Assembly (NCBI RefSeq): GCF_021401085.1 | Contig: NZ_JACBFP010000001.1 | Coordinates: 434,001-498,000, forward strand | Direction: 5' to 3' | DNA: 64,000 nucleotides | From: Chryseobacterium sp. R2A-55 | GTDB lineage: Bacteria; Bacteroidota; Bacteroidia; Flavobacteriales; Weeksellaceae | Part shown: one piece after another, positions 4,741 to 64,000 of the stretch | How the letters are laid out: each line of letters opens with the position of its first letter | How positions within the stretch are numbered: the stretch's first letter is position 1 | The notes under the pieces: model-generated | Seen by the model: the letters and a program-made list of their open reading frames with translations, nothing else | Told to the model about the DNA's origin: nothing | Database searches by the model: none | Program-made: the position numbers and the translations under genes

Positions 4741-5322
4741 ATGAACCACTTTGAATCGCTGGAAGATTTTGCCGAAAAAAACTTTAACTGGTTAAAGGAA
4801 CAGCACCCGCTTCTTGAAAAATATTTCCAAAAGGAAAGCTTTAAGAAAAATGAAATCCTGCTCCATGCCGGAGAAATTTGCCAGAAATTGTACTTCATTC
4901 ACCAAGGGATTCTTCGTACGTTCCACATCAATTCCAATGGCTCGGAATTTACCCGGCTCATCGTCAAAGAAAATGAGTTCTGCACCATTCTGGTGAGTTT
5001 TTCCGGAAAAATAGCGAGTCCGGCAAACATACAGGCGCTGGAAAATACCGAAACTTATAGCATCACCTATGAAAATTTCCAGAAATTGATGGCCGGATCA
5101 GACCATGCAAAAAACATCTACACCCAAATCCTGGAGCATTTCCAGAATTTCCAGATCAAAAGGATTGAATTTTTGACTTCCTATTCGCCGCAGCAAAAAG
5201 TGGAGATTTTTCTTGCGGAAAATCCCGGATTAGCATCCAGATTGACTGATAAAGTGATCGCTTCTTATCTCCAAATTACGCCGGAAACCTATTCCCGCTG
5301 TAAAAAAATCCTGAAGGATTAA
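4741..5322 (+). CDS. Crp/Fnr-family transcriptional regulator
   Basis: A 193-residue regulator with a cyclic-nucleotide-binding-type beta roll (about 25-115, including FKKNEILLHAGEICQKLYFI and GILRTFHI) and a C-terminal helix-turn-helix (about 165-190, DKVIASYLQITPETYSRCKKI). The recognition helix carries E-T-x-S-R, the Fnr-like pattern for reading a TGA half-site. The N-terminus lacks the Cys cluster of oxygen-sensing Fnr. The HTH part is short, as in many Bacteroidota homologues. A TGA-N6-TCA palindrome lies 47 bp downstream at 5369, ahead of hpd, so hpd is a candidate target. Confidence 0.85.
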   Translation: MNHFESLEDFAEKNFNWLKEQHPLLEKYFQKESFKKNEILLHAGEICQKLYFIHQGILRTFHINSNGSEFTRLIVKENEFCTILVSFSGKIASPANIQALENTETYSITYENFQKLMAGSDHAKNIYTQILEHFQNFQIKRIEFLTSYSPQQKVEIFLAENPGLASRLTDKVIASYLQITPETYSRCKKILKD

Positions 5323-50982: not shown

Positions 50983-51363
50983 TTATTTCTTCAAGGTAAG
51001 AATGTATTCAACCATTTTTTTTGCAGTCTCTTTGCTCATGCCTGCGTGCGGAGTCATTGGGATTTCGCCCCAGTTTCCTTTTCCACCGTCGATGATTTTT
51101 TGTGCGAGCATATCAATATCCGCATCCGTATATTTGTTCGCAACATCTTGATAAGAAGGACCAACCACTTTGGTATCTATTTTATGGCAAGTCAAGCAGT
51201 CTGCACCTTCGATCAGCGCCAAACCTTCATGCTTTCCAGAAGCGGCATCTCCCGTAGTGGGAGAAGGTTCTTCCATCATTACATTGCTTTCTTTTTCAGT
51301 ATCAACGTTCTTGGTGCAAGAAACAATCATAAAAAGTCCCCCTAGAATCAAAAATTTATTCAT
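50983..51363 (-). CDS. Monohaem cytochrome c lipoprotein
   Basis: A 126-residue lipoprotein from the Met at 51363 (FLILGGLFMIVSC lipobox; the frame is open further upstream, through the promoter region). The haem motif is DCLTCH and the likely axial Met is in IPMTPHAGMSK. It is divergent from the larger cytochrome gene next to nosZ, with a Crp/Fnr palindrome between them. Electron delivery to NosZ or a terminal oxidase is plausible. Confidence 0.85.
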   Translation of the reverse strand: MNKFLILGGLFMIVSCTKNVDTEKESNVMMEEPSPTTGDAASGKHEGLALIEGADCLTCHKIDTKVVGPSYQDVANKYTDADIDMLAQKIIDGGKGNWGEIPMTPHAGMSKETAKKMVEYILTLKK

Positions 51364-51387
51364 ATCTTTATCAATATTTATACTCCG

Positions 51388-51395
51388 CAAATTTA
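51388..51395 (-). promoter_or_regulatory. -7 element for the small cytochrome c gene
   Basis: CAAATTTA on the plus strand is TAAATTTG on the minus strand, matching TAnnTTTG, 24 bp upstream of the start at 51363. The Crp/Fnr palindrome centre lies about 55 bp further upstream. Confidence 0.5.
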
Positions 51396-51441
51396 TTAAA
51401 AATAATCGAATATAAAATGCACGACAAAAGTCATACTCTTT

Positions 51442-51459
51442 ATATGACCGCAATCATAT
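51442..51459. promoter_or_regulatory. Crp/Fnr-type palindrome between the divergent cytochrome genes
   Basis: ATATGA-CCGCAA-TCATAT, a perfect 6+6 dyad with a TGA-N6-TCA core. The centre (51450.5) is 29.5 bp upstream of the -7 element TATTTTTG at 51480, i.e. near -41.5, the class II activator position. Confidence 0.7.
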
Positions 51460-51479
51460 TAGCCTAGAACCAAAACTTG

Positions 51480-51487
51480 TATTTTTG
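51480..51487 (+). promoter_or_regulatory. -7 element of the cytochrome c-nosZ operon
   Basis: TATTTTTG matches TAnnTTTG. There is no TTG at -33; the Crp/Fnr palindrome takes that place, as expected for an activator-dependent promoter. Confidence 0.6.
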
Positions 51488-51507
51488 AACCATTAAATTA
51501 TTAAAAT

Positions 51508-52008
51508 ATGAAATCTTTAAAAACACTTGCATTAGCTGCATTCGCATTCGCACTCTTCTCTTGCGGAGGGGACAAAAAAAGTGATTCCATCCCAACTGCT
51601 TCTTCTGAGGGCGCTGCTGCCACAGAAGCACCTGCAACTCAAGCTGCAGTTGATCCCGCAACTTATGATCCAAAAAGAGGACTCGGCCCACACGAAAACG
51701 TGGACGTGAGTAAATTTGATCCAGCGATGGCTGCTGCAGGAAAGAAGATCGCAGAAGTTAAATGTACATCTTGCCACAAACCAACCGAAGAAAAATTGGT
51801 AGGACCAGGTTGGAAAGGAGTTACCAAAAGACAAACTCCTGAGTGGATTATGAACTTCATCTCCAATCCAGATCCAATGATCGACGTGGATCCAGAATTA
51901 CAAAAACAACTAGAACTTTGTTTGGTGAGAATGCCGAACCAAGGTTTGAATGAAAAAGATGCCAGAGAAGTTCTCGAATACATGAGAGAAATCGACGGAG
52001 CGAAGTAA
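51508..52008 (+). CDS. Cytochrome c lipoprotein of the nos operon
   Basis: A 166-residue lipoprotein (lipobox ALFSC) with a Ser/Ala-rich linker and one class I haem c domain: haem motif CTSCHKP at about 94, LVGPGWKGVTKRQTPEWIMNF, and an axial Met in LVRMPNQGL. It lies 48 bp before nosZ and is the natural electron donor candidate. A c-type cytochrome beside nosZ is typical of clade II clusters. Confidence 0.88.
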   Translation: MKSLKTLALAAFAFALFSCGGDKKSDSIPTASSEGAAATEAPATQAAVDPATYDPKRGLGPHENVDVSKFDPAMAAAGKKIAEVKCTSCHKPTEEKLVGPGWKGVTKRQTPEWIMNFISNPDPMIDVDPELQKQLELCLVRMPNQGLNEKDAREVLEYMREIDGAK

Positions 52009-52056
52009 TTCTTTTCTTACGCAGAAAAAAGAAAAAATCCAGTAAATCAATTTCAT

Positions 52057-54057
52057 ATGAAAAGTCTAAAATTTTTTGGATGGTCTGCCCTTATGTCAAT
52101 TTTGATGATGACAGGCTGTAAACCAAAGGGAACGGAGAACGCTGTAAGTGGCGATGCTGCCGAGAAAGTTTATGTTGCTCCCGGAAAATATGACGAGTTT
52201 TACAACTTCGTCAGCGGTGGCTTCAATGGACAGGTAAACGTTTACGGTTTGCCAAGCGGAAGATTGCTAAAAGTACTTCCTGTCTTTTCGCAGAACCCGG
52301 AAAACGGTTATGGTTACAGTGAAGAAACCAAGCCGATGCTACAAACCTCTCATGGATTCATTCCCTGGGATGACCAACACCACCTTTCACTGTCTCAAAC
52401 CAATGGCGAAGTGGATGGAAGATGGCTGTTTGCAAACGCCAACAACACGCCCAGAGTGGCAAGATTGGATCTGAAAACATTCAAGACTGTTGAAATATTG
52501 GAATTGCCCAACTCTGCAGGGAACCACTCCTCACCATTCTTGACAGAAAACACGGAATATGTGGTGGCAGGAACCCGTTTCGCGGTGCCAACCGATGACA
52601 AAAACGGAGACGTTCCGATTAATACCATGAAAGAAAACTTCAAAGGAGTTTTGTCGTTCATTGGAATTAACAAAGACAGTGGAGATATGGATCTCTCTTT
52701 CCAGATTGAAGCTCCAGGAATTAACTTCGACCTTTCTCACGCAGGTAAAGGTAAATCCCACGATTGGTTCTTTTTCTCTTGCTATAACTCTGAAAAAGCC
52801 AACACCCTTCTTGAAGTAAACGCGTCCCAAAATGACAAAGATTTCATTTTGGCAGTGAATTGGGTGAAAGCAGCCGAGTTGGTGAAAGCTGGAAAAGGCA
52901 GAAAAGTGCAAACCGAATATGCCCACAACAAATTCGATGAAAGCACCCACACTGCAACTTCAACGATGAAGAAAGAAGTTACCGTACTTTCTATTGATGA
53001 CATGAAAGAAGCCATGTACCTGATTCCTTGCCCGAAATCCCCACACGGATGCGACGTGGATCCAACCGGTGAATACATTGTGGCTTCCGGAAAACTGGCA
53101 GCTCTGATTCCAGTATTCAGCTTCGACAAAATCCAAAAAGCAATCGCGGATAAAGCTTTCGCATCTGATTATGACGGAGTTCATGTAATTAAATATGAAG
53201 CAGCTCTTCACGGCGAGGTTCAAAAACCAGGTTTAGGTCCACTTCACACAGAATTTGACGGAAAAGGAAACGGTTACACTTCCATGTTCGTTTCATCTGA
53301 AGTGGTAAAATGGGACATTAAATCTCTGAAAGTTTTGGATAGACAGCCAACTTTCTACTCAGTGGGTCACTTGATGATTCCTGGTGGAGACAGTAAAAAA
53401 CCTTTCGGGAAATATTTGGTTGCATACAACAAAATTACCAAAGACAGGTATTTGCCAACAGGTCCAGAATTGGCTCAGTCTGCACAGCTTTTTGACATCA
53501 GTGGTGATAAAATGAAACTGCTGCTGGATTTTCCAACTTTTGGTGAACCGCATTACGCACAAGCTTGTCCTGGAGAATTATTATCAAAAAATCAGGTGAA
53601 GTTCTTCAAAATTGCAGACAATAAAAACCCATATGTGACCAAAGGTGAAGCAGAAAGCAAAGTAGTGAGAGAAGGAAACAAAGTTCATGTTTACATGACC
53701 TCCATCCGCTCGCACTTCGCACCGGATAACATCGAGGGAATCCGGGTTGGAGACGAAGTTTACTTCCACGTCACCAATTTGGAGCAAGACTGGGATGTTC
53801 CACACGGATTTGCCATCAAAGGAAATGAAAACGCTGAACTCTTAATCATGCCGGGTGAAACCTGTACGCTGAAATGGGTTCCTAAGAAGCCGGGAATGTA
53901 CCCAATGTACTGTACAGACTTCTGCTCCGCGCTGCACCAGGAAATGCAGGGTTATGTGAGAGTATCACCTGCAGGAAGCAACACTCCGCTCATTTATTCC
54001 CTGAATAATAAGAAGGACAATGCTGTAGGTCCTGTGAAAGAAGGTGAAACCAAATAA
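52057..54057 (+). CDS. nosZ: Nitrous-oxide reductase, clade II, lipoprotein-type signal
   Basis: A 666-residue enzyme that reduces N2O to N2. The seven-bladed propeller holds the CuZ His ligands, starting with DDQHH near 106-110; the C-terminal cupredoxin has the CuA motif C-x3-C-x3-H-x2-M at Cys619, Cys623, His627 and Met630. The signal sequence is Sec-type with a lipobox (MMTGC, Cys21), not the Tat RR type of clade I. So the enzyme is probably membrane-tethered in the periplasm. No nir or nor gene is in the window. Confidence 0.96.
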   Translation: MKSLKFFGWSALMSILMMTGCKPKGTENAVSGDAAEKVYVAPGKYDEFYNFVSGGFNGQVNVYGLPSGRLLKVLPVFSQNPENGYGYSEETKPMLQTSHGFIPWDDQHHLSLSQTNGEVDGRWLFANANNTPRVARLDLKTFKTVEILELPNSAGNHSSPFLTENTEYVVAGTRFAVPTDDKNGDVPINTMKENFKGVLSFIGINKDSGDMDLSFQIEAPGINFDLSHAGKGKSHDWFFFSCYNSEKANTLLEVNASQNDKDFILAVNWVKAAELVKAGKGRKVQTEYAHNKFDESTHTATSTMKKEVTVLSIDDMKEAMYLIPCPKSPHGCDVDPTGEYIVASGKLAALIPVFSFDKIQKAIADKAFASDYDGVHVIKYEAALHGEVQKPGLGPLHTEFDGKGNGYTSMFVSSEVVKWDIKSLKVLDRQPTFYSVGHLMIPGGDSKKPFGKYLVAYNKITKDRYLPTGPELAQSAQLFDISGDKMKLLLDFPTFGEPHYAQACPGELLSKNQVKFFKIADNKNPYVTKGEAESKVVREGNKVHVYMTSIRSHFAPDNIEGIRVGDEVYFHVTNLEQDWDVPHGFAIKGNENAELLIMPGETCTLKWVPKKPGMYPMYCTDFCSALHQEMQGYVRVSPAGSNTPLIYSLNNKKDNAVGPVKEGETK

Positions 54058-54070
54058 CACAGATCAATTT

Positions 54071-54097
54071 AAAGGGCGGTTTTCACTGCCCTTTTTT
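54071..54097 (+). terminator. Terminator after nosZ
   Basis: AAAGGGC / GCCCTTT stem followed by six T residues. The accessory nos genes downstream would then need their own promoter. Confidence 0.7.
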
Positions 54098-54119
54098 CTT
54101 TTGCTGATAGTTATCATGT

Positions 54120-54135
54120 TGTGATTCAAGTCACA
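54120..54135. promoter_or_regulatory. Crp-type palindrome upstream of the nos accessory genes
   Basis: TGTGA-TTCAAG-TCACA, identical in both half-sites to the classical Crp consensus. It lies 57 bp before the membrane protein gene at 54192 and after the nosZ terminator. The promoter core downstream is weak. Confidence 0.7.
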
Positions 54136-54191
54136 TTAAAACGATTCAAAAATCACGAAATTTACTATCCTTTATCCAATATCATTATCAA

Positions 54192-54776
54192 ATGAAAAAT
54201 CCCTCATTATCCAAATGGTCACGCATCTTTTTAATCATTTGCGGACTAGGTCTGTTCGTTTCCATATTTGTCCCATTATGGGCGATTTATCTGCAAGCAC
54301 CGCAATATCCTGAAGGACTGGCAATGTTTTTATGGTCCCACAAAATCACCGGTGATTATCAAATCATCAATGGTCTGAATCACTACATCGGCATGAAGAC
54401 CATTCATCAGAAAGATTTTTGGGAATTTAAAGTTTTACCCTATGCATTGGGATTTTTTGGCGTGCTTTGCTTCATCGCCGCTTTTCTCAATAAAAAGATT
54501 TGGCTTTATCTGACTACTCTCTTTTTTCTGATTTTTGGGCTTGCATTTATGGTAGATTTCTGGGCTTGGGAATACAATTACGGACACAATTTGGATCCCA
54601 ACGCGGCAATCGTGGTTCCAGGAATGTCTTACCAACCTCCATTAATCGGATTTAAACAACTTCTGAACTTTGGCGCCTATTCCTTCCCCGATATAGGCGG
54701 AATCATTATGTTCGCCGTTGCAGGAATTTTGGTTATCTTAGCATATTTAGAATTCAGAAAAAGGAAAAATGCATGA
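54192..54776 (+). CDS. nos-cluster integral membrane protein
   Basis: A 194-residue protein with four predicted membrane segments (about 12-32, 83-101, 104-125, 165-187) and a periplasmic loop with WSHKITGDYQIINGLNHYIG and WAWEYNYGHNLDPNAAIVVPG. Similar small membrane proteins follow nosZ in clade II clusters and may correspond to what is called NosB there; I am not sure of that identity. His and Met residues near the membrane could bind copper. Confidence 0.65.
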   Translation: MKNPSLSKWSRIFLIICGLGLFVSIFVPLWAIYLQAPQYPEGLAMFLWSHKITGDYQIINGLNHYIGMKTIHQKDFWEFKVLPYALGFFGVLCFIAAFLNKKIWLYLTTLFFLIFGLAFMVDFWAWEYNYGHNLDPNAAIVVPGMSYQPPLIGFKQLLNFGAYSFPDIGGIIMFAVAGILVILAYLEFRKRKNA

Positions 54777-54837
54777 TTTGCAAAAGTCTAACTAACCGAA
54801 GTTTTACCATTATTTAAATACCTAAAATTAAAAACTT

Positions 54838-55248
54838 ATGAAAGCAAAACCATTTCTAATTGCCGCAGGATCTATACTGGCATTTATGTCCTGCCAACAG
54901 TCTGGACCGAAAGATTTCCTTTTGGGAAGCGACCAGTGTGATAACTGCAAAATGACGATTACCGAGATTAAGTATGCCACCGAACTGATCACCGAGAAAG
55001 GAAAAGTCTATAAATTTGACGACATCAACTGCATGAATATGTATGAAGGTTCCAATCCAGACAAAGCTAAAAATGCTAAAACCTACGTCATAGATTTTCC
55101 CACTGATCAGTTTTTGGAAAAAAAACATGCAACACTCATCAAAGGCGGAACCATCAAATCGCCGATGGGTGGCAACACACAGGCTTTCAAAAATAAAGCA
55201 GATGCTGAAAAGGCAGCCGCAAAACTCGGTGCAAGTTTAACGAAATAG
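54838..55248 (+). CDS. nosL: Copper chaperone NosL
   Basis: A 136-residue lipoprotein (lipobox FMSC) with CDNCKMTI for Cu(I) binding near residue 36, followed by KFDDINCMNMY and GGTIKSPMGGNTQAF. It supplies copper for NosZ CuZ assembly. It lies 6 nt before nosD. Confidence 0.9.
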   Translation: MKAKPFLIAAGSILAFMSCQQSGPKDFLLGSDQCDNCKMTITEIKYATELITEKGKVYKFDDINCMNMYEGSNPDKAKNAKTYVIDFPTDQFLEKKHATLIKGGTIKSPMGGNTQAFKNKADAEKAAAKLGASLTK

Positions 55249-55254
55249 CAAAAA

Positions 55255-56481
55255 ATGTTTAGATTTCTGTTTCTGTTTTTTCCGGTATTTCTGTTTTCAA
55301 ACGTGCTGAAAGTCGGGAAAAATGAAACCTACAAAACCATTAAAAGCGCTGTCGCCTCATCAAAAAGTGGCGACAGTATTTTGGTGGAAAGCGGCATCTA
55401 CAAAGAAGGCAACATCAGCATCACCAAACCTTTGACCCTCATCGGTTTCGGAAGACCGGTACTGGATGGCGAATTCAAGTATGAAATCCTCTCCTTTCGC
55501 TCGAACCACATCGTTCTAAAAGGCTTCAAAATCATTAATTCCGGGGAAGACGAAGTGGAGAATATTGGCGCAATCCGTTTGTACGACAGTCATTTTTCCA
55601 CGATTGAAAATAATATTTTTGAGAATAATTATTTCGGAATATATATTCAGCGAGGTTACCGATGCCTGATCCAGAATAATAGAATCACCACCAGTCGTTC
55701 CAAATCCCAGGAAGGAGTCGGTGACGGAATCCATGCGTGGGTGAGCAAAGAACTTTGGATTAAGAACAACTATATTTCCGGACATAAAGATGGGATCTAC
55801 CTGGAAAAAGTAGTGCAATCATACATTTACCGCAATGATTCGGTCAAGAATCTGCGTTATGGACTTCATTTCATGTTTTCTAATGACAATGTTTATGTTT
55901 CCAATATTTTCGACAATAATAATGCGGGAGTTGCCGTGATGTACAGCAATAACGTAGGAATGATGGGAAACAAATTCATCAACAACTGGGGCGATGGAAG
56001 TTATGGTTTATTACTGAAGGATATCTCATTCAGCAAAATCAAACACAATGTTTTCCAAAGCAATACCGTGGCGATATTTTTAGACGGTGCCACAAAAATC
56101 GACTTTTACCAAAACGATTTCCAAAACAATGGGTGGGGAATGAAAATCAACGCCAACTGCATGGAAAACCGGGTGCGAAGAAATAATTTCATCAACAACA
56201 CTTTTGACGTGAGCACCAACGGAACGATGGTAATGAATGATTTCAGAAATAATTATTGGGACAAGTATGAAGGTTATGATTTAAACAGGGACGGAATCGG
56301 CGACATTGCGTTTCATCCGTTGAGTCTCTATTCTTATTTGGTTGAAAAAAATCCGTCCGTGATGCTTTTGTTCAAAACATTCATCGTGGATTTATTAGAC
56401 AAGACTGAAAAAGTGATTCCCAGTCTTACTCCGGAAACCTTCGTGGATGAGCAACCTTTAATGAGAAAAGTAAAATTTTAA
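55255..56481 (+). CDS. nosD: NosD, periplasmic copper-site maturation protein
   Basis: A 408-residue exported beta-helix protein (signal peptide 1-17). Right-handed parallel beta-helix rungs with repeats such as NNIFENNYFGIYIQRG and NNNAGVAVMYSNNVGMMGNKF run through the centre. NosD works with the NosFY transporter to build CuZ. It ends 179 bp before nosF. Confidence 0.92.
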   Translation: MFRFLFLFFPVFLFSNVLKVGKNETYKTIKSAVASSKSGDSILVESGIYKEGNISITKPLTLIGFGRPVLDGEFKYEILSFRSNHIVLKGFKIINSGEDEVENIGAIRLYDSHFSTIENNIFENNYFGIYIQRGYRCLIQNNRITTSRSKSQEGVGDGIHAWVSKELWIKNNYISGHKDGIYLEKVVQSYIYRNDSVKNLRYGLHFMFSNDNVYVSNIFDNNNAGVAVMYSNNVGMMGNKFINNWGDGSYGLLLKDISFSKIKHNVFQSNTVAIFLDGATKIDFYQNDFQNNGWGMKINANCMENRVRRNNFINNTFDVSTNGTMVMNDFRNNYWDKYEGYDLNRDGIGDIAFHPLSLYSYLVEKNPSVMLLFKTFIVDLLDKTEKVIPSLTPETFVDEQPLMRKVKF

Positions 56482-56660
56482 TCCGGAGAAATTTTTATAG
56501 AAAAAAAATAAAGAGAATACGCACAATTGATTTTTGAAGATCGCCCTTCAGATATAAACGGAAACAGCAAATCCGAAGTTTTAAGGAGCTATTTCACAAA
56601 AATAAAATAATGCGAAGTCGGAAGAAAGTAGTCCGAAATTTGTGCTGCTAAATAATAATT

Positions 56661-57374
56661 ATGATTACAATACAGGCTCTCACCAAAAAATTCGGGAAAT
56701 TCACCGCGGTGAAGGATGTGACCCTTGATTTGCAGGACGGTCATTCCATTGCGCTCATCGGTCCGAACGGTTGCGGAAAAACGACGATGATCAAATGCAT
56801 TCTAGGTTTAAACGTGGTGGAAGAAGGCGATATTCTGGTGAATGAAAAAAGTGTGAAGGACCATTATCTGTACCGAAAAGATATCGGTTATATGCCGCAA
56901 ATCGGGCGGTATCCGGAAAATATGACCATCGGACACACCATCCAAATGATTAAAGATACCCGAAAACTCGCGGAAGAACATTTGGACAACGAACTTCTGG
57001 AAGCTTTCGAGCTGGAAAAAATATTCGACAAGAAAATGGGAAACCTTTCCGGCGGAACCACCCAAAAAGTGAGCGCGGTTTTGGCGTTTATGTTTGACCC
57101 GAAAATCATCATCTTGGATGAACCTACCGCTGGACTTGATCCGCTCGCTTCAGAAATCCTGAAAAAGAAAATAATCAAAGAAAAAAATAGGGGCAAATTA
57201 ATTCTGATCACTTCACATCTATTAAGTGAATTAGACGAAATCGTGAGCGAAGTCATCTTCATGAACGAGGGAAAAGTTTTGGTGCACCAATCCGTGGAAG
57301 ATCTCCTGAAACAGACCAATTCCGGGAAAATCTCAGAATCGATTGTAAGTATTTTAAAAGAAATGAAGAAATGA
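56661..57374 (+). CDS. nosF: NosF, ABC transporter ATPase
   Basis: A 237-residue ATPase: Walker A GPNGCGKTTMIK near 33, signature LSGGTTQKVSAVL near 133 (LSGGT variant), Walker B IIILDEPTAGLDP near 150. It energises NosDFY in CuZ assembly. It overlaps nosY by 4 nt. Confidence 0.93.
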   Translation: MITIQALTKKFGKFTAVKDVTLDLQDGHSIALIGPNGCGKTTMIKCILGLNVVEEGDILVNEKSVKDHYLYRKDIGYMPQIGRYPENMTIGHTIQMIKDTRKLAEEHLDNELLEAFELEKIFDKKMGNLSGGTTQKVSAVLAFMFDPKIIILDEPTAGLDPLASEILKKKIIKEKNRGKLILITSHLLSELDEIVSEVIFMNEGKVLVHQSVEDLLKQTNSGKISESIVSILKEMKK

Positions 57375-58138
57375 ACAAGATAGCGCGCTTTATCCTTTTT
57401 GATATTTTGAAAAACAAAATCATCCTGTTTTACACGGTTCTGCTGTTCATCCTTTCATGGTCGGTTCTTGGGCTGGAAAGCAATTACACCAAAGCGACTT
57501 TGAGTTTGCTGAATGTGGTTTTGCTCGTGGTTCCATTGGTAAGTATCATATTTTCTACGATTTACGTGTACAACAGCAGTCAGTTTGTGGAGTTGCTTTT
57601 GAGCCAGCCGGTTCCCAGAACCAAAGTCTGGTTCAATATTTTCCTGGGACTTTCCACAGCACTGGTTTTTGCTTTTCTGATCGGCTGCGGAATTCCTATT
57701 GTTCTGTATTCATCGATTGAGACAGGATTTTCCTTAATTATTATCGGTATTTTTCTGTCCATTATTTTCACTTCTTTTGCCATGCTTTCCGCGATTTCAA
57801 GTCGGGACAAGGCGAAAGGAATCGGAATCTCCATTTTTCTATGGATTTTCTTTGCGATAATTTATGACGGTATTCTGTTGGTTCTCATGTTCCAGTTTGC
57901 AGATTACCCAATTGAAGGAATTATGGCGACATTGGCGGGACTAAACCCGATTGGTTTGGCCAGGATCTTCGTGTTGCTTCAGCTTGATGTTTCGGCGATG
58001 CTCGGTGCTTCCGGGGCAATATTTAAACAGGTTTTCGGATCCGGCGGCGGAATGGGAATTTCATTGGTCGTGATGGCGGTTTGGGCGATTATTCCTTTTT
58101 TACTCTCCTTGATTAAATTCAACAAAAAGGATTTATAG
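57371..58138 (+). CDS. nosY: NosY, ABC transporter permease
   Basis: A 255-residue permease with six hydrophobic segments and the ABC-2 type layout (FVELLLSQPVPRTKVWFN, SRDKAKGIGISIFLWIFF). Start overlaps nosF, so the two are translationally coupled. Partner of NosD and NosF. Confidence 0.92.
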   Translation: MNKIARFILFDILKNKIILFYTVLLFILSWSVLGLESNYTKATLSLLNVVLLVVPLVSIIFSTIYVYNSSQFVELLLSQPVPRTKVWFNIFLGLSTALVFAFLIGCGIPIVLYSSIETGFSLIIIGIFLSIIFTSFAMLSAISSRDKAKGIGISIFLWIFFAIIYDGILLVLMFQFADYPIEGIMATLAGLNPIGLARIFVLLQLDVSAMLGASGAIFKQVFGSGGGMGISLVVMAVWAIIPFLLSLIKFNKKDL

Positions 58139-58201
58139 CGATTGTTATGAAATTTGAAGAGCATCTTTACCGGATGATCTAACCTCTTGTGCGCTTTTTT
58201 C

Positions 58202-58213
58202 TGACTTATGTCA
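58202..58213. promoter_or_regulatory. Crp/Fnr-type palindrome upstream of the nos-cluster crp gene
   Basis: TGAC-TTAT-GTCA (TGA-N6-TCA core). The centre (58207.5) is 30.5 bp upstream of the -7 element at 58238, again near -41.5, suggesting autoactivation. Confidence 0.6.
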
Positions 58214-58237
58214 CCGGTCGATGTTTATTTTTTTTCC

Positions 58238-58245
58238 TATATTTG
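58238..58245 (+). promoter_or_regulatory. -7 element of the nos-cluster crp gene
   Basis: TATATTTG matches TAnnTTTG 15 bp before the ATG at 58261. This shows that the longer reading frame from 58189 starts too early. Confidence 0.6.
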
Positions 58246-58260
58246 ATCAAATTAAAAAAT

Positions 58261-58857
58261 ATGTTTTCTCGAGAGATTCTGTTGAAAAATAAGATTCCGC
58301 GAATGCTTTTGAAAAGGAAAGACACCCTTTTCCGCGAAGATGAAAAAGCTTTGAATCTATATTTTTTAACGAACGGAGAGATCAAGATTTACAATACCGA
58401 TTCTGAAGGTAAAGAGTTCCTTATTGAAAAGGTTTCTAATTTCAAATTCCTGGGTGAACCCCCGTTTTTATTAGGCGAAAGGTATCCCGCCAATTCTGTA
58501 ATCATCAGTGACACCGCGGAGATTTTCAGATTCAGCACTGAACATTTTAATCAATTTATGTCCGAAAATCCAGATATGATGTTCAAATTCACGATGGAGA
58601 TAGCGAGAAAAGCCTACAACAAAACCATGAAACTGAAATCTATCGTGCATCAAAACCCCAACGAAAGAATTCTGAATTTCCTGAAAAACTACAAAAGAAG
58701 CCACAACCTGGAACTCACCGAAAAAAGCATCATCGAGGTGACCCGAAAGGAAATGGCAAACTCTACCGGTTTAGCGATTGAAACCGTGATCCGTACTGTG
58801 AAAAAAATGGAACGGGAGAATAAAATCGAACTTATCAATCATAAAATCTTATTCTGA
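58261..58857 (+). CDS. Cysteine-free Crp/Fnr regulator of the nos cluster
   Basis: A 198-residue regulator from ATG 58261. Sensor beta-roll about 15-110 (DTLFREDEKALNLYFLTNGE, LGEPPFLLGERYPANS), long dimer helix, then HTH about 165-190 (TRKEMANSTGLAIETVIRTVKKM). The recognition helix has E-T-x-x-R, the residues that read a TGA half-site in Crp and Fnr. There is no Cys at all, so it cannot carry an Fe-S cluster; a DNR-like haem/NO sensor or other ligand is possible. It is the best candidate to bind the TGA-N6-TCA boxes around it. Confidence 0.88.
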   Translation: MFSREILLKNKIPRMLLKRKDTLFREDEKALNLYFLTNGEIKIYNTDSEGKEFLIEKVSNFKFLGEPPFLLGERYPANSVIISDTAEIFRFSTEHFNQFMSENPDMMFKFTMEIARKAYNKTMKLKSIVHQNPNERILNFLKNYKRSHNLELTEKSIIEVTRKEMANSTGLAIETVIRTVKKMERENKIELINHKILF

Positions 58858-60077
58858 TGAACAAAGCTTTCTGGCTAAAATTTTCGGTATTCAATTTTTT
58901 CTTGGCAGCAGTTTTGGGCGTGATTATGCGCTATAAAATTGTTTATTCATTTCCATTCTTAGACCAGAAGCATTTACAGGAAGCGCATTCCCACTTTGCA
59001 TTTTATGCCTGGATTACCAATGCGATTTATGTTTTGGTGGTCATTTATCTGAGTAAGATGAATCCTGATCTGAAACTGACCAAATACAAAGCGCTCCTCA
59101 CCGCCAATATTATTTCCTCTTTCGGAATGTTGGCCGCTTTCATTTATGGCGGATACTTTTCGGTATCGGTGTTTTTTTCCACCACTGCGCTGCTCGTCAG
59201 TTTTGTTTTTGCCTTTCTTTTTTATGCAGATTCCCTAAAGATTCAAGACCAGTCAAAACCGTGGTTTCTGGCGGGCTTATTTTTTGCGGTGATTTCTTCG
59301 CTCGGTGTATTCAATTTAGGCTATATGAGTGCAACAAATAGCACGACCCAGAATATGTTTTTGGCTTCGGAATATTATTATCTGCATTTCCAATACAATG
59401 GATTCTTTATTTTTTCCTGCATTGGATTGCTGCTCTATTCGCTGAAGGAAATCGGTTCCTCCATCTCTGAAAAGAAGAATAAATTGCTGTTTTGGTTAAT
59501 GTTTATGGGCTGTCTAATTGGTTTTGGGCTTTCTATTCTTTGGTTCAAAATGCCAATTTATGTTTTCACATTAATCGCTATTGCCACTATCGGGCAAACA
59601 ATTGGCGCGATCATGCTATTTGCCTTTGTCAAGAAAAGCTGGACCCAAATCTCAGCAAACTGGTTACCCATGCAGCGCTTTATCCTGCTTTTTGCGGGAT
59701 TCGCATTCGCAGTGAAGATTGCATTGCAGCTCGGTTCCAATATTCCTGCAGTGAATCAGTTCGCTTTCGGATTCAGAAATATTGTCATCGCATATCTGCA
59801 CTTGGTTTTACTCATGTGCATTGCCATGTTCTTGATCAATCAAATCTTGGCGACCCGTCTTTTCAGCAATACCAAACCTCTTTCATTGGGACTTAAACTA
59901 CTGCTTCTTGGTATATTTTTAAACGAGGCGGTACTTGGCTTAATGGGTGTTTTTTCAATCACTTATAATGCGGTTCCTTACGCCAATCATGCCTTGTTTT
60001 ATATTTCGCTACTGATGATGGTTGCTTTGTTGGTGATTTTTGTGAATCTAAGATTCAAATCCGAAAATCAGATCTAA
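58857..60077 (+). CDS. Haem-copper-oxidase-subunit-I-like membrane protein
   Basis: A 406-residue polytopic protein with about 12 hydrophobic segments. Conserved-looking His occur in QEAHSHFAFYAW (helix 2 region), YYYLHFQYNGFF and RNIVIAYLHLVLL, recalling haem ligands of haem-copper oxidases and NO reductases, but the HH pair and the covalent His-Tyr motif of those are not evident. It overlaps the crp stop codon by 1 nt and so belongs to the nos transcript. The function is unknown; a quinol- or NO-related role is speculative. Confidence 0.6.
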   Translation: MNKAFWLKFSVFNFFLAAVLGVIMRYKIVYSFPFLDQKHLQEAHSHFAFYAWITNAIYVLVVIYLSKMNPDLKLTKYKALLTANIISSFGMLAAFIYGGYFSVSVFFSTTALLVSFVFAFLFYADSLKIQDQSKPWFLAGLFFAVISSLGVFNLGYMSATNSTTQNMFLASEYYYLHFQYNGFFIFSCIGLLLYSLKEIGSSISEKKNKLLFWLMFMGCLIGFGLSILWFKMPIYVFTLIAIATIGQTIGAIMLFAFVKKSWTQISANWLPMQRFILLFAGFAFAVKIALQLGSNIPAVNQFAFGFRNIVIAYLHLVLLMCIAMFLINQILATRLFSNTKPLSLGLKLLLLGIFLNEAVLGLMGVFSITYNAVPYANHALFYISLLMMVALLVIFVNLRFKSENQI

Positions 60078-60202
60078 AGCGACCCACACTTTTTGAAAGT
60101 GGCAGTTGAGTCCAGCAGGCTTTTCAGTAATCCACAAAAAAGCAGTTTCAGGAAAACCCGAAACCGCTTTCAATCATTAAATTTAATAAACTATTACATT
60201 CT

Positions 60203-60760
60203 TTATTCCGGAACTACCACTTCGTCAATTGCGTAAACGATACCGTTAGAAGCTGGAACAGTTGCCAAAATATGTGCTTTTCCGTTGATGGTAGGTTTGC
60301 CGTCAACCATTTTAATGGTGATATTTTTACCGTCAACCATTCCCAGATTTTGTCCGTCACTCATTTGATCTTCCTTGATCACTCCTACATAAGTATGATG
60401 CCCCAAAATATCGGTGAGTTTGCCATTGTTTTCAGGTTTCAGCAAGTCTTCCACCGTACCTTTCGGTAATTTGTCGAAAGCCGCATTAACTGGTGCGAAC
60501 ACCGTGAAAGGACCCGCGTTGCTCAAAGACGTAGTTAATCCTGCAGTTTGAACCGCTTTCACCAAAGTGGAAAGATCGGGATTTTTTGCTGCAAGCTGCA
60601 CGATGTTTGGATTGGATTCCTCGTCCTGCACTCCTTCCTGTCCGTGTCCCACGGTTTCAGTAGTTGCAGATGCTGAGTTTTCAGTTGCCGCTGATTCATT
60701 TTTCTTGCAGGAAAGCAAAGCAAATCCTACTACACTTAAAATTAGAATTGACCTTTTCAT
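60203..60760 (-). CDS. Fasciclin-domain lipoprotein
   Basis: A 185-residue lipoprotein (lipobox LLSC) with one fasciclin (FAS1/BIgH3) domain: NIVQLAAKNPDLSTLVKAVQT, LSNAGPFTVFAPVNAAFDKLP, LTDILGHHTYVG and KAHILATVPASNGIVYAIDEV. The usual role is adhesion or surface binding. It is divergent from ppk1, with two palindromes in between, and is a candidate target of the nos-cluster regulator. Confidence 0.9.
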   Translation of the reverse strand: MKRSILILSVVGFALLSCKKNESAATENSASATTETVGHGQEGVQDEESNPNIVQLAAKNPDLSTLVKAVQTAGLTTSLSNAGPFTVFAPVNAAFDKLPKGTVEDLLKPENNGKLTDILGHHTYVGVIKEDQMSDGQNLGMVDGKNITIKMVDGKPTINGKAHILATVPASNGIVYAIDEVVVPE

Positions 60761-60776
60761 CTGTTTAATTTTTTGT

Positions 60777-60784
60777 TAAAATTA
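60777..60784 (-). promoter_or_regulatory. Possible -7 element of the fasciclin gene
   Basis: TAATTTTA on the minus strand differs from TAnnTTTG in one base. It is 30.5 bp from the centre of the palindrome at 60806-60823, the same geometry as for the other nos-cluster promoters. Confidence 0.45.
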
Positions 60785-60805
60785 GTCACAATTAACGATT
60801 AGCCA

Positions 60806-60823
60806 ATATGACCATGGTCATAT
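60806..60823. promoter_or_regulatory. Crp/Fnr-type palindrome between fasciclin and ppk1 genes
   Basis: ATATGA-CCATGG-TCATAT is an uninterrupted 18-bp palindrome with a TGA-N6-TCA core, nearly the same as the box at 51442. Confidence 0.7.
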
Positions 60824-60840
60824 AATAAGGGATTGATTAC

Positions 60841-60854
60841 GTGATATTTATCAC
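60841..60854. promoter_or_regulatory. Second Crp/Fnr-type palindrome before ppk1
   Basis: GTGAT-ATTT-ATCAC, same half-sites as the hpd box at 5369. It is about 90 bp upstream of the ppk1 -7 element. Confidence 0.55.
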
Positions 60855-60914
60855 CAATACCAACAAAGATATGGTCTTCATGAAATTTCCGATATTAAAT
60901 TTCCTCCTTACACA

Positions 60915-60944
60915 TTGACATTTTCGCTGAAATCTCTATTTTTG
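60915..60944 (+). promoter_or_regulatory. Bacteroidetes-type promoter of ppk1
   Basis: TTG at 60915-60917, a 19-nt spacer, TATTTTTG at 60937-60944. This is a full match to the vegetative consensus, 22 bp before the ATG. Confidence 0.75.
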
Positions 60945-60966
60945 AGAAATCATATTCATCCCGAAA

Positions 60967-63024
60967 ATGCCGAATCAATATAATCCGAGAGATATCACGT
61001 GGCTTGCCTTTAATGAAAGAGTTTTGCAGGAAGCAATGGACGAAAACGTGCCGCTCCACCTCAGAATCCGCTTTTTGGGCATCTTCTCCAATAATTTGGA
61101 TGAGTTTTTCAGGGTACGTGTAGCCGGATTGAAACGCGCGATGGACTTCAAGGATAAATTCATCACCGAATCTTTTTACCAGCCGCCGTCAAAAATTCTG
61201 CAAAACATCAACGAAATCGTCATCAAACAGCAGCAGGATTTTGACAAAACATGGAAGAAAATCCAGCTGGAGATGGCGGAACAGAAAATCTTTATTAAAA
61301 GTGCAAAAAACCTAAGTCCGGAACAAAAAATATTCGTCAGGAAATATTTCGATGAAGTGGTAGAAAGCAACGTGATTCCAATTTTGCTTCACAATAACGT
61401 TCCGATGCCTTATTTACGTGACAAATCACTCTACTTGGGAATCGCAATGCGGAAAAAAGAATGGCAGTACGAAAGCAAATTCGCCATCATTGAGATTCCA
61501 TCACGGATTATCGGCAGATTTGTGCTGCTTCCGTCTGAAGATAAAGATGAAAAAAACGTGATGCTTCTGGAAGACGTCATCACGTTCAATTTACCCCATA
61601 TTTTCTCGTATTTTGGATATGATGATTTTGAAGCCAACTGTTTCAAAGTAACTAAAGATGCGGAATTCGATTTAGACAATGACATCAAGACGACTTTGGC
61701 CGAAAAAATTGAAAAAGGCATCAAATCCCGAAGAAAAGGAAAACCAACCCGTTTTGTTTTCGACAAGGAAATGGACAAAGCATTGCTGGAATTCCTGATC
61801 CGGAAATTAAATCTCAGCAAAAAAGACAGCATCATTCCCGGAGGAAAAATCCATAATTTCAGGCATTTCATGGACTTTCCGGATGTATTCAAAGCTTACA
61901 AAAAACCGGAGGAAAGAAACTCCTTCGACCACCCGGAATTTGTAGGAAAAAGAGTAACCGATGTGATCCAGAAAAAAGATGTACTGCTTACTTTTCCTTA
62001 TCACACTTACACTCCCGTCATTGACCTGATGCGGGAAGCGGCGATGGATCCGGATGTGAAGTCTATTCAAATCACAGCATACCGATTGGCAAGTAATTCC
62101 AAGATCGTGAATGCTTTGATTAATGCGGTTCGAAACGGAAAAGAAGTGACGGTGATGCTCGAACTTCGGGCAAGATTTGATGAAGAAAGCAACCTGGAAT
62201 GGAAAGAAATTCTGGAACAGGAAGGGGTGAAAGTACTGGTGGGAATTCCAAACAGAAAAGTTCATGCGAAACTCTGCGTCATTAAGAAAAGAGTCCACAG
62301 CAAAACGATTCAGTACGGATTTGTAAGCACCGGAAACTTCAACGAAAAAACAGCCAAAATTTACGGCGACCATTTGCTGATGACCGCAGACAGAGGAATC
62401 ATGGCGGATATCAATAAAGTTTTCCATGTGTTGAGAAAGCCCAAAGACGATATTATTCCTGTTTTGAAAACCTGTAAAAATCTTTTGATTTGTCCGCAAT
62501 TTATGAGGGAAAAAATCCTGTGGCACATCGACAAAGAAATAGAGGAAGCCAAAGCAGGGAGGAAAGCGGAAATGATTATCAAAGTCAATTCAGTAAGCGA
62601 TCGGAATCTGATTACCAAACTTTACGATGCCGCAAAAGCCGGAGTAGTGGTGAAAATGATTGTTCGAGGAATTTATTGCGCCGTGAACCAAAAGGAATTT
62701 AAACAAAAAATCCAGGCAATCAGCATTGTGGATGAATATTTGGAACACGCGAGAGTGATGTATTTCTACAACAAAGGCAGTGAAGACATCTACATTTCAT
62801 CCGCCGACTGGATGACCAGAAATCTCGATTACCGAATTGAAGCCGCCGCAAAAATCAATCAGAAAAATTTGAAAAAAGAAATCAAGGACATTCTGGAAAT
62901 CCAGTTAAATGACAACGTAAAAGCCAGAATTCTGGACAAAAAGATGAGCAACAAATATGTGGATAACGGAAAAACCGAAGTGCGGTCGCAGATTGAGACG
63001 TATAAGTATTTGAAATCAAAGTAG
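60967..63024 (+). CDS. ppk1: Polyphosphate kinase 1
   Basis: A 685-residue enzyme that polymerises the gamma-phosphate of ATP into polyphosphate. N-terminal domain (YNPRDITWLAFNERVLQEA, NNLDEFFRVRVAGLKRA), then the phospholipase-D-like catalytic domains with NRKVHAKLCVIKKR (phospho-accepting His) and FVSTGNFNEKTAKIYGDHLL; the second HKD-type site follows near 590. Length matches the family. It has its own promoter and possibly a Crp/Fnr input. Confidence 0.95.
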   Translation: MPNQYNPRDITWLAFNERVLQEAMDENVPLHLRIRFLGIFSNNLDEFFRVRVAGLKRAMDFKDKFITESFYQPPSKILQNINEIVIKQQQDFDKTWKKIQLEMAEQKIFIKSAKNLSPEQKIFVRKYFDEVVESNVIPILLHNNVPMPYLRDKSLYLGIAMRKKEWQYESKFAIIEIPSRIIGRFVLLPSEDKDEKNVMLLEDVITFNLPHIFSYFGYDDFEANCFKVTKDAEFDLDNDIKTTLAEKIEKGIKSRRKGKPTRFVFDKEMDKALLEFLIRKLNLSKKDSIIPGGKIHNFRHFMDFPDVFKAYKKPEERNSFDHPEFVGKRVTDVIQKKDVLLTFPYHTYTPVIDLMREAAMDPDVKSIQITAYRLASNSKIVNALINAVRNGKEVTVMLELRARFDEESNLEWKEILEQEGVKVLVGIPNRKVHAKLCVIKKRVHSKTIQYGFVSTGNFNEKTAKIYGDHLLMTADRGIMADINKVFHVLRKPKDDIIPVLKTCKNLLICPQFMREKILWHIDKEIEEAKAGRKAEMIIKVNSVSDRNLITKLYDAAKAGVVVKMIVRGIYCAVNQKEFKQKIQAISIVDEYLEHARVMYFYNKGSEDIYISSADWMTRNLDYRIEAAAKINQKNLKKEIKDILEIQLNDNVKARILDKKMSNKYVDNGKTEVRSQIETYKYLKSK

Positions 63025-63236
63025 AGACATGACTTATTGCTTGTCCAAGAATATTGAGAAAAAAAACGAAAAACGAGGAAATTAATGAACTTTTTAAGGA
63101 CAAAATCTCAAAAGTAAAACATAGATTTGCGAACAGAATTTAAAATGAACTGCTGCTAAAATTATGCTTTAAAAAATCTGCTGAAGGCACCCAATAAGAA
63201 AGACCAGTTTCATTTGCAAAAACTAAATTACCCAAA

Positions 63237-63268
63237 TTTGCCCACCTCCCCAAAATTCCCTAACTTCG
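63237..63268 (+). promoter_or_regulatory. Promoter of the cobalamin-regulated receptor
   Basis: TTTG at 63237-63240, 20-nt spacer, TAACTTCG at 63261-63268 (one mismatch to TAnnTTTG). It lies just ahead of the riboswitch. Confidence 0.5.
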
Positions 63269-63274
63269 CCCTAC

Positions 63275-63445
63275 TTTCAGAAAAGGGAATCGCGTGAAAT
63301 CCGCGAACTGTCCCCGCAACTGTAAATCACGGAGGATTAAGTAATCATTAACAGTGCCTTAATTCCGCAAAAAGTTTCTGCAAAGAAGCCATTTTCAAGA
63401 TCATGAAGAGAAGGCGCAGAAATGTGAAAGTCAGGAGACCTTACT
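63275..63445 (+). promoter_or_regulatory. Cobalamin riboswitch
   Basis: The AdoCbl-aptamer core GGGAATC...GTGAAA...ACTGTCCCCGCAACTGTAA is present at 63284-63328, and the closing segment AAGTCAGGAGACC at 63428-63440. The element precedes a TonB-dependent receptor gene, the standard target: bound cobalamin would block expression. Confidence 0.92.
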
Positions 63446-63490
63446 GAAAGCTCAACCCAAAAAACTGCTTTCGGAGGAAAAGCCCTGAAA

Positions 63491-64000
63491 ATGTTCAAAA
63501 ACTTACCTTTTTTTTCAGCATTATTTCTGCTGTTTTCGTTTCCGATTTCCGCACAGGAAAAAATCATCGATACCGTTTTTATCTTTGATAACCAAATCGG
63601 TAATGCAAAAAAAATCCAGAAAATTTCGACTTTAAAAGAAGAAGATTTACTGAAGAATTCTACTAATCTCTCCGAAGTACTCCGGTTTCAATCGCCGGTT
63701 TATATCAAAGAAAATGGCCGCGGAATGGTTTCTGCGCCGTCTTTTCGCGGAACCACGGCACAGCAAACCGCGTTCGTTTGGAACGGGATCAATGTGAATT
63801 CACAGTTTCTTGGACAAGGCGATATCAATAATCTCAACCTTCTCGGCTATGACCATCTCGAAATAAAATCCGGCGGCGGAAGTGTGATTTACGGCAGTTC
63901 GGCTATTGGAGGAACGATTCACTTGAACAACGAATTAAGTTTTAACCGTGGTTTGAAGAATTCCGTTTTTTTTGAATATGGTTCGTTTGAAACGTACAAT
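63491..64000 (+). CDS. TonB-dependent receptor, likely cobalamin/cobinamide (BtuB-like), partial
   Basis: The first 170 codons of an outer-membrane receptor; the gene continues past the window edge. Signal peptide 1-22 (ending ISAQ), then a plug domain with NLSEVLRFQSPVYIKENG, SFRGTTAQQTAFVWNGINV and KSGGGSVIYGSSAIGGTIHL. No carboxypeptidase-like N-terminal extension. The riboswitch upstream indicates B12 or corrinoid uptake. Confidence 0.88.
   Translation, partial: MFKNLPFFSALFLLFSFPISAQEKIIDTVFIFDNQIGNAKKIQKISTLKEEDLLKNSTNLSEVLRFQSPVYIKENGRGMVSAPSFRGTTAQQTAFVWNGINVNSQFLGQGDINNLNLLGYDHLEIKSGGGSVIYGSSAIGGTIHLNNELSFNRGLKNSVFFEYGSFETYN

Follow-up and report, generated by a model that had tools for sequence, protein, structure and literature searches.

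We analysed a stretch of 64,000 nucleotides from Chryseobacterium sp. R2A-55 (C11:434001-498000 of the 2.93 Mb assembly; hereafter the window), which carries genes of nitrous oxide (N2O) respiration (nos) together with a gene for a Crp/Fnr-type regulator. An initial annotation had read five TGA-N6-TCA dyads over these genes as a single Crp/Fnr regulon; its observation is confirmed and its interpretation is supported in part. Two of the dyads belong to a longer palindrome, TATGA-N6-TCATA, which is kept at the same promoter position across the Bacteroidota loci compared, and probably the Crp protein encoded in the cluster switches the cluster on through this palindrome by class II activation. 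The closest named nosZ match is that of Chryseobacterium koreense, with a NosZ identity of 99% (own-genome records were possibly left out of the search). From 50983 to 63024 the gene order is divergent cytochrome c, cytochrome c-nosZ, NosB-like gene, nosL, nosD, nosF, nosY, crp, mem406, fasciclin and ppk1, with the following features.

50983-51363, minus strand: divergent lipoprotein-like cytochrome c (PF00034)
51508-52008, plus strand: cytochrome c immediately 5' of nosZ (PF00034)
52057-54057, plus strand: nosZ, Sec-dependent, clade II type (TIGR04246, 919 bits against a cut-off of 625)
54192-58138, plus strand: NosB-like membrane protein, nosL, nosD, nosF and nosY (NosL, NosD and NosY by Pfam/NCBIfam)
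58261-58857, plus strand: Crp/Fnr regulator gene, 198 amino acids (PF00027, PF13545, PF00325)
58857-60077, plus strand: mem406, orphan membrane protein encoded with the regulator (heme-copper oxidase subunit I fold in a model)
60203-60760, minus strand: fasciclin-domain lipoprotein (PF02469)

NosY was assigned from an ABC2 membrane protein family match, nosF (56661-57374, an ATP-binding cassette ATPase) was named from sequence and position alone, and ppk1 from sequence or position only, with no family search behind the name. The NosB-like protein is what we take it to be by its position only, and a loose Pfam search with it gave no usable match.

The TATGA-N6-TCATA box and its promoters

The sites at 51443 and 60807 are exact TATGAYnnnnRTCATA boxes. 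TATGAC-N5-TCATA occurs in exactly two places in the whole genome (2.9 Mb), both in the nos interval, and TATGAYnnnnRTCATA in only four (51443, 60807, C31:159003 and C1:98561). The box at C31:159003 lies 151 base pairs (bp) 5' of nrdJ; that at C1:98561 is 249 bp away from the start of an outer-membrane-protein-like gene, and no conserved target was found for it, though it was not followed in relatives. Across 20 named Weeksellaceae genomes there are 66 exact boxes against 10 for a reversed control pattern; 33 fall in nos loci and 33 elsewhere, the latter including 10 inside open reading frames and five before nrdJ. These counts, like those below, span related genomes and are not independent of each other. 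The promoter elements in question are as follows.

51443-51458: exact box common to the two divergent cytochrome c genes, at the class II position for cytochrome c-nosZ
51480-51487, plus strand: -7 element TATTTTTG, whose start is 29.5 bp away from the box centre at 51450.5
51388-51395, minus strand: -7 element TAAATTTG for the divergent cytochrome c gene; distance to the centre of the 51443 box 55.5 bp, class I-like
60807-60822: exact box TATGACCATGGTCATA, at the class II position for fasciclin, centre 60814.5
60777-60784, minus strand: -7 element TAATTTTA, one base off TAnnTTTG, 30.5 bp from the box centre at 60814.5
60842-60853: distal element TGATATTTATCA (on the fasciclin strand TGATAAATATCA), 33 bp 5' of the proximal box

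The comparison covered the window and 80 nosZ loci, the best of 485 confirmed. In cytochrome c upstreams the box was scored at up to one mismatch within 200 bp and a -7 element was sought within 60 bp; L062 has no cytochrome c start and stands outside the 80 upstreams (the window and 79 of the 80 loci), and L078, with only 18 bp upstream, was scored as a miss. The box is present in 69 of these 80 upstreams. Of the 11 without it, ten have a best site at two mismatches and the other is L078; nine belong to Chitinophagaceae/Sphingobacteriales-type loci in which crp and mem406 lie 5' of cytochrome c, several with boxes of their own. A perfect TAnnTTTG occurs in 34 of the 69 boxed upstreams; 33 of these have it 29.5 or 30.5 bp away from the box centre (shuffled expectation 0.12), and only three of the 33 promoters have TTG at -33. 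Both the box and the fixed -7 spacing are conserved in Flavobacterium and Chitinophagaceae-type loci as well. When cytochrome c cores were picked by -7 spacing alone (63 promoters), T and A preceded the core in 100% each, and T (98%) and A (97%) followed it; because these cores were chosen by spacing only, selection does not account for the TA flanks.

The TAnnTTTG element of Flavobacterium occupies -12 to -5, according to passages of PMC9723704, and the box centre is therefore predicted at -41.5 to -42.5. A centre near -41.5, an intact -7 element and a weak or absent -33 element are the features of class II activator-dependent promoters, and they support control of cytochrome c-nosZ by a Crp/Fnr protein in this manner. 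The initial annotation had placed -7 elements at class II distance at 51480, 58238 and 60784, and these spacings are correct (29.5, 30.5 and 30.5 bp from the box centres). It had found a -33 TTG missing from one of the promoters; in fact, none of the three has TTG exactly at -33 (TTA, GTC and TGG).

A probable use of the 51443 box that the initial annotation overlooked is by the divergent cytochrome c gene (50983), at a class I-like distance. Where this gene was found, a box lies upstream in 26 of 26 cases (the window and 25 loci), and 19 of 21 perfect -7 matches in relatives fall 52.5-63.5 bp from the box.

At the fasciclin gene the -7 element is relaxed. Of 48 boxed promoters, 27 have TAnnTTTR at a distance of 29.5 or 30.5 bp (shuffled expectation 0.37) and only two have a perfect TAnnTTTG, and none of the 27 has TTG at -33, a layout that supports class II activation of this gene, too, by a Crp/Fnr protein. 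Among the 58 fasciclin promoters whose box has up to two mismatches, 23 have a second TGA-N6-TCA located 32 or 33 bp 5' of this proximal box (shuffled expectation 0.11), all 23 being Weeksellaceae-type loci (L001-L028) or the window. Its consensus, GTGATAAAWATCAC, is without TA flanks and differs from the nos box, and the element at 60842 is probably the site of a second regulator. A similar sequence, TGATAAATGTCA, sits just 5' of the cbb3-linked Crp gene (L197:8539-8550).

The likely further target, outside the window and overlooked by the initial annotation, is nrdJ, the gene for a B12-dependent ribonucleotide reductase. Of 18 genomes, 11 have a box at up to one mismatch 148-154 bp before the nrdJ start (chance per sequence in shuffles 0.008), and the genus-mate G174, which has nrdJ and neither nosZ nor a nos-type Crp, has no nrdJ box (best site at four mismatches). 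The gene was found in 17 of 28 nosZ genomes (17 of 20 Weeksellaceae and none of eight others) and in two of 24 hand-chosen nosZ-less genomes. A class II promoter is not supported here, none of the 11 having a perfect -7 element. An Rfam scan of the window at gathering thresholds gave a single match, a cobalamin riboswitch (RF00174, 63284-63441, 53.4 bits), which is of interest in that the B12-dependent ribonucleotide reductase gene elsewhere in the genome is also preceded by a box. Other candidates come from single genomes: TonB receptors (C. lacus, the genome of L018 and K. palustris), ccoS (K. yonginensis) and, in C. lacus, a gene for an oxidase resembling cbb3 and nitric oxide reductase (NOR) (PF00115, L149:891-3001), beside which lie a box and a second VETVIR Crp. 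A small ECHGKCQ protein is a candidate in two genomes.

The 58261 regulator and the ownership of the box

The 58261 protein is a member of the Crp/Fnr superfamily, with PF00027, PF13545 and PF00325 above gathering scores and a CRP fold in its AlphaFold model (predicted local distance difference test, pLDDT, 90.4; predicted template modelling score 0.68). As had been claimed, it has no cysteine in its 198 residues and carries E-T-x-x-R recognition residues, the helix reading A-I-E-T-V-I-R. Invariant or nearly invariant among 24 subfamily members are E26, G39, G50, E52, Y75, P76, A79, E174, T175 and R178. The window holds a second Crp-family protein (4741-5322, PF00027, helix TPETYSR) that is not close to the nos Crp.

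How does this protein compare with known regulators? FNR-type iron-sulfur (Fe-S) ligands are lacking: the protein itself has no cysteine, its relatives have from zero to eight, and none is invariant in the 24 members. It shares with Escherichia coli CRP the fold (3ryp, E 1.2e-14), the equivalents of E181 and R185 and the class II layout, and differs from it in having V/I at the equivalent of R180, in its score (70.4 bits against the cyclic AMP-CRP equivalog cut-off of 266) and in an operator with TATGA rather than TGTGA; the register of the helix with CRP was set by eye. CRP R180 is linked to G3 of the operator in passages of PMC1274295, and V/I in its place is in keeping with an operator that has A where CRP sites have G. 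The DNR/NnrR regulators are likewise Crp/Fnr proteins of nitrogen-oxide reductase genes and lack the FNR cysteine motif, as described in parts of PMC1274295, which gives the DNR motif as CTTGATnnnnATCAAG; the operator here is TATGAY...RTCATA, not TTGAT-N4-ATCAA, and similarity of the 58261 protein to DNR (3dkw) is weak (E 1e-7). HcpR2 of Bacteroides and others, in the same passages, comprises Bacteroidota Crp/Fnr regulators that co-occur with hcp, and has the motif GTAACnnnnGTTAC and Pro at 181, whereas the 58261 protein keeps Glu at this position and its operator is not GTAAC-N4-GTTAC.

Another parallel is offered by the Nss-type Crp/Fnr regulators of Wolinella and Nitrosophilus, Campylobacterota with clade II nosZ. 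Passages of PMC11539149 describe dyads predicted 5' of the nap, nor and nos units of such a bacterium and name N2O as a possible signal in W. succinogenes. The same passages also point to differences: the Nss consensus is TTGA-N6-TCAA rather than TATGA-N6-TCATA, the regulator genes lie 5' of nap and nor rather than inside nos, and the correlation with nosZ is negative.

The neighbouring mem406 protein matched no Pfam family, and a loose search gave no usable match. Its model (pLDDT 86.9) finds its best matches in the PDB among cbb3 oxidases (template modelling score 0.76-0.77 by query length) and then NOR (about 0.7-0.77 over both groups). Across 19 relatives few histidines are invariant (H44, H46, H177 and H315), so its CuB site may be incomplete, and it may be an orphan oxidase-like protein tied to nos.

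In the 24 genomes sampled from the genus of the window, nosZ and a nos-type Crp occur in the same 20 and are both missing from the same four. In a family sample of 158 genomes, with E-value cut-offs for a nos-type Crp that are our own choice, nosZ is present in 43 of 45 genomes with such a Crp at E<=1e-32 and such a Crp in 43 of 53 nosZ genomes; eight of the other ten nosZ genomes have a weaker match, listed within about 8 kb of nosZ for seven of them. Boxes number 3.31 per genome against 0.57 for the control pattern where both nosZ and Crp are present (n=51), 6.44 against 1.25 where Crp occurs without nosZ (n=48), and 1.65 against 1.11 where there is neither (n=57, p 0.056). Box excess follows the number of such Crps (Spearman 0.67) more closely than genome size (0.29), with relatedness uncorrected. 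Genus co-occurrence alone is no proof of ownership because fasciclin, nosZ and Crp go together; it was downgraded, the nos fasciclin orthologue being missing too, and a test on Crp paralogues was substituted.

For that test, 20 Crp paralogue regions (50.9 kb) were hand-picked by Crp coordinates only from nosZ-less genomes among the matches listed. Genomes whose boxes had already been seen (G048, G071 and G126) or that had been fetched earlier (G136, G176 and G065) were omitted, and other listed genomes, such as G100, G066, G182, G060 and G172, were not taken. The regions hold 13 exact boxes in eight regions and 28 at up to one mismatch in 15, whereas 19 control stretches 30-70 kb away (48.4 kb; one further stretch does not exist) hold no exact box and one at up to one mismatch. 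The reversed pattern gave no exact match in either set. A text pattern for the V/I-E-T-(V/A/T)-I-R helix finds it in 17 of the 20 regions; of the other three, two are boxless and one (L265) has two boxes. These findings support ownership of the box by the Crp subfamily with a VETVIR-type helix to which the 58261 protein belongs. Chryseobacterium-like genomes (L237, L242, L243 and L254-L273) have several paralogues of the VETxIR Crp type, many of them arranged in tandem with boxes close by and some near catalase-like and stress-protein genes; genus and genes were named by eye.

In an alternative view, which we consider rather unlikely, a different Crp/Fnr protein of this genome serves as a general low-oxygen regulator and reads the box, with the nos-encoded Crp playing a minor part. 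The foremost candidate is that at C22:33183, beside cbb3 oxidase genes and ccoI. Its helix (TESAIR) has similar recognition residues (E-x-x-I-R), its start region holds TGATAAATGTCA, which is similar to the distal fasciclin element, and K. yonginensis has one exact box before ccoS-ccoN. Against this, the ccoS upstream of the genome studied here has neither a TGA-N6-TCA core nor a box (best site at four mismatches), in nosZ-less genomes the boxes are concentrated near the genes of VETxIR Crps, and box numbers are near background in genomes without the VETxIR subfamily.

Dyads before the NosB-like, regulator and ppk1 genes

The five dyads of the initial annotation are all real, with cores at 51445, 54122, 58202, 60809 and 60842; four of its starts (51442, 54120, 60806 and 60841) had counted flanking bases and are offset from the cores. 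A sixth intergenic core, at 54105, had been omitted. The bare core is too common to serve as evidence by itself: the window holds 42 against 29.0 +/- 5.4 in shuffles (at least 42 in one of 100), the coding DNA of 1-51400 holds 23, and six of the 12 in 51401-60960 lie within coding DNA. Equal frequency in other intergenic DNA, which would have spoken against a regulon, is not seen within the window. Intergenic cores number six per 982 bp in 51401-60960, six per 7174 bp in 1-51400 and one per 982 bp in 60961-64000, or 6.1/kb in the interval and 0.86/kb in the rest (Poisson p 0.0002, Fisher p 0.0013); the counts come from crude gene calls and the interval had been chosen for its boxes, so these tests are not blind. 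The elements before the NosB-like gene and the regulator gene are as follows.

54122-54133: dyad TGTGATTCAAGTCACA before the NosB-like gene, lineage-specific and not of the nos box class
54157-54164, plus strand: weak -7-like element GAAATTTA, 29.5 bp from the dyad centre at 54127.5
58200-58215: degenerate box TCTGACTTATGTCACC with three mismatches before the regulator gene (core 58202-58213), variable in relatives
58238-58245, plus strand: -7 element TATATTTG for the regulator gene, at a distance of 30.5 bp to the dyad centre at 58207.5

A single regulon of all five dyads that takes in ppk1 and the NosB-like operon, as was initially proposed, now seems improbable. In favour of it are the TGA-N6-TCA core common to all five and the weak -7-like element at 29.5 bp from the 54122 dyad. 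The parts that find support are cytochrome c-nosZ and fasciclin; those that do not are ppk1 and the single motif, since the 54122 dyad has TGTGA..TCACA flanks and is lineage-specific and the 60842 element has its different consensus.

A conserved nos box for a nosB-nosY unit can be rejected for the family as a whole, because only three of 80 NosB-like upstreams have a box at up to one mismatch, none of them with a perfect -7 element. The spacer before this gene is absent in nine of 15 close loci. Dyads similar to that of the window occur in L001 and L012, and GTAAC..GTTAC-like dyads take its place in L011, L013 and L016; a GTAAC..GTTAC dyad, the operator type of HcpR2, precedes the NosB-like gene of K. 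jeonii. At this one place the dyad changes type among close species, as though regulator specificity had switched. The cores at 54105 and 54122 may be of chance origin.

Autoregulation of the 58261 gene through the 58202 dyad, as had been proposed, is weakly supported. The -7 spacing is correct; against this, its own box has three mismatches, and a box at up to one mismatch is present in 28 of 64 crp upstreams, mostly Flavobacterium-type loci. Among these 28, TAnnTTTG lies at 29.5 or 30.5 bp in 11 (shuffled expectation 0.09), none with TTG at -33, and the boxed mem406 upstreams give nine of 21 (shuffled expectation 0.06). Among 15 aligned close loci the crp box is good in L011, L013 and L016 only, L001 has four mismatches, and 10 retain the -7-like element and not the box.

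For ppk1, the proximity of boxes stems from a rearrangement. The usual order, in the 19 of the first 28 loci that have all four genes beside nosY without the inversion, is nosY, fasciclin(+), mem406(-), crp(-), ppk1(+); L003, L010 and L015 share it, with ppk1 not in the piece. The window and L001 (C. koreense) have nosY, crp(+), mem406(+), fasciclin(-), ppk1(+), and among the loci examined the crp-mem406-fasciclin block (58138-60967) is inverted only in these two; Riemerella (L027) and Flavobacterium loci show other orders again. Because the inversion brought them there, the boxes adjoining ppk1 are displaced fasciclin boxes, and among 21 ppk1 upstreams only those of the window and L001 contain them. 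The upstreams of L011, L013 and L016 hold the box of the divergent crp, and those of L017, L020 and L024 hold other TGA-N6-TCA cores. The claim that ppk1 is a target is therefore rejected.

A predicted mechanism and its significance

The explanation that we favour is that the nos cluster encodes its own Crp/Fnr regulator, of a Bacteroidota subfamily with a V/I-E-T-(V/A/T)-I-R helix, whose dimer would bind TATGAYTGCARTCATA-type palindromes centred near -41.5/-42.5 and activate sigma-A promoters that have kept a TAnnTTTG-like -7 element and no fixed -33 TTG. The 51443 box would drive cytochrome c-nosZ as a class II site and probably also the divergent cytochrome c from a class I-like distance. 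The 60807 box would drive the fasciclin lipoprotein, with the different site 33 bp upstream probably admitting another regulator, and nrdJ, for oxygen-independent ribonucleotide reduction, would be a likely further target at a spacing that is not class II. As for the signal, it is most likely either low oxygen or a nitrogen oxide, and its sensing would not involve an Fe-S cluster. Low oxygen is favoured because nrdJ is a likely target and because Cloacibacterium nosZ falls at high oxygen; that drop, at high dissolved oxygen in a metatranscriptome (passages of PMC11879220), is in line with a low-oxygen response. N2O or nitric oxide may instead be the signal of the 58261 protein.

Several observations weigh against this explanation. 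The box is missing from 36 of 64 crp and 45 of 66 mem406 upstreams, the window's included, and five of the 20 paralogue regions are without a box at up to one mismatch. Two genomes, G030 and G107, have nosZ and no Crp at E<=1e-14, with 10 and two boxes. In the four genus-mates without nosZ no fasciclin match exceeds 48% identity, and the loss of nosZ, Crp and boxes in the genus may have been a single event. As to nrdJ, seven of 18 upstreams lack the box, none of the 11 boxes has a perfect TAnnTTTG within 60 bp, and G038, with neither nosZ nor nos-type Crp, retains a site at two mismatches 5' of the gene. The similar helix of the C22 Crp could allow it to share sites. Finally, the sequences show the box, its conservation, the -7 spacing and the association between box and Crp subfamily, and from these we infer binding of the box by the 58261 protein, its signal and activation rather than repression, the last from position alone.

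Might the bound Crp repress instead of activating, or do both? Repressor sites usually overlap or follow the -7 element, whereas a centre near -41.5, a free -7 and no fixed -33 TTG make up the classical activator layout, and we consider repression very unlikely; passages of PMC11539149 report that a Crp/Fnr gene of Nitrosophilus labii correlates negatively with nosZ expression, which speaks for it. That the dyads are chance palindromes in AT-rich DNA has next to no probability, and for 51443 and 60807 this reading is refuted. The bare core occurs often and 10 of the 33 exact boxes outside nos loci fall inside open reading frames, but the excess over the reversed pattern, the half of exact boxes found in nos loci, the fixed -7 spacing and the conservation in Flavobacterium and Chitinophagaceae-type loci all stand against it.

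No nosZ operator for Bacteroidota, nor this box, is described in the titles, abstracts and passages searched, most subscription journals lying outside the search; the topics covered were nosZ with Crp/Fnr or other regulators in Bacteroidota, fasciclin, comparative regulons, Cloacibacterium and nrdJ. A bolder and distinctly doubtful idea is that N2O reducers of the Bacteroidota rely on an Fe-S-free Crp that is dedicated to nos and follows an operator code of its own. With mem406, a protein of heme-copper oxidase fold and few conserved histidines, this Crp would form a two-gene gas-sensing module that would couple N2O respiration to oxygen-independent synthesis of DNA precursors through nrdJ.

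Bacteroidota are a major N2O-consuming group, and CB-01 has been trialled as a field inoculant (passages of PMC11168931). With box, promoter layout and regulator gene defined, the control of this activity becomes testable, with a predicted regulon of two cytochromes c, nosZ, the fasciclin protein and perhaps nrdJ, and the box provides a motif for locating paralogous regulons in Chryseobacterium-like genomes.

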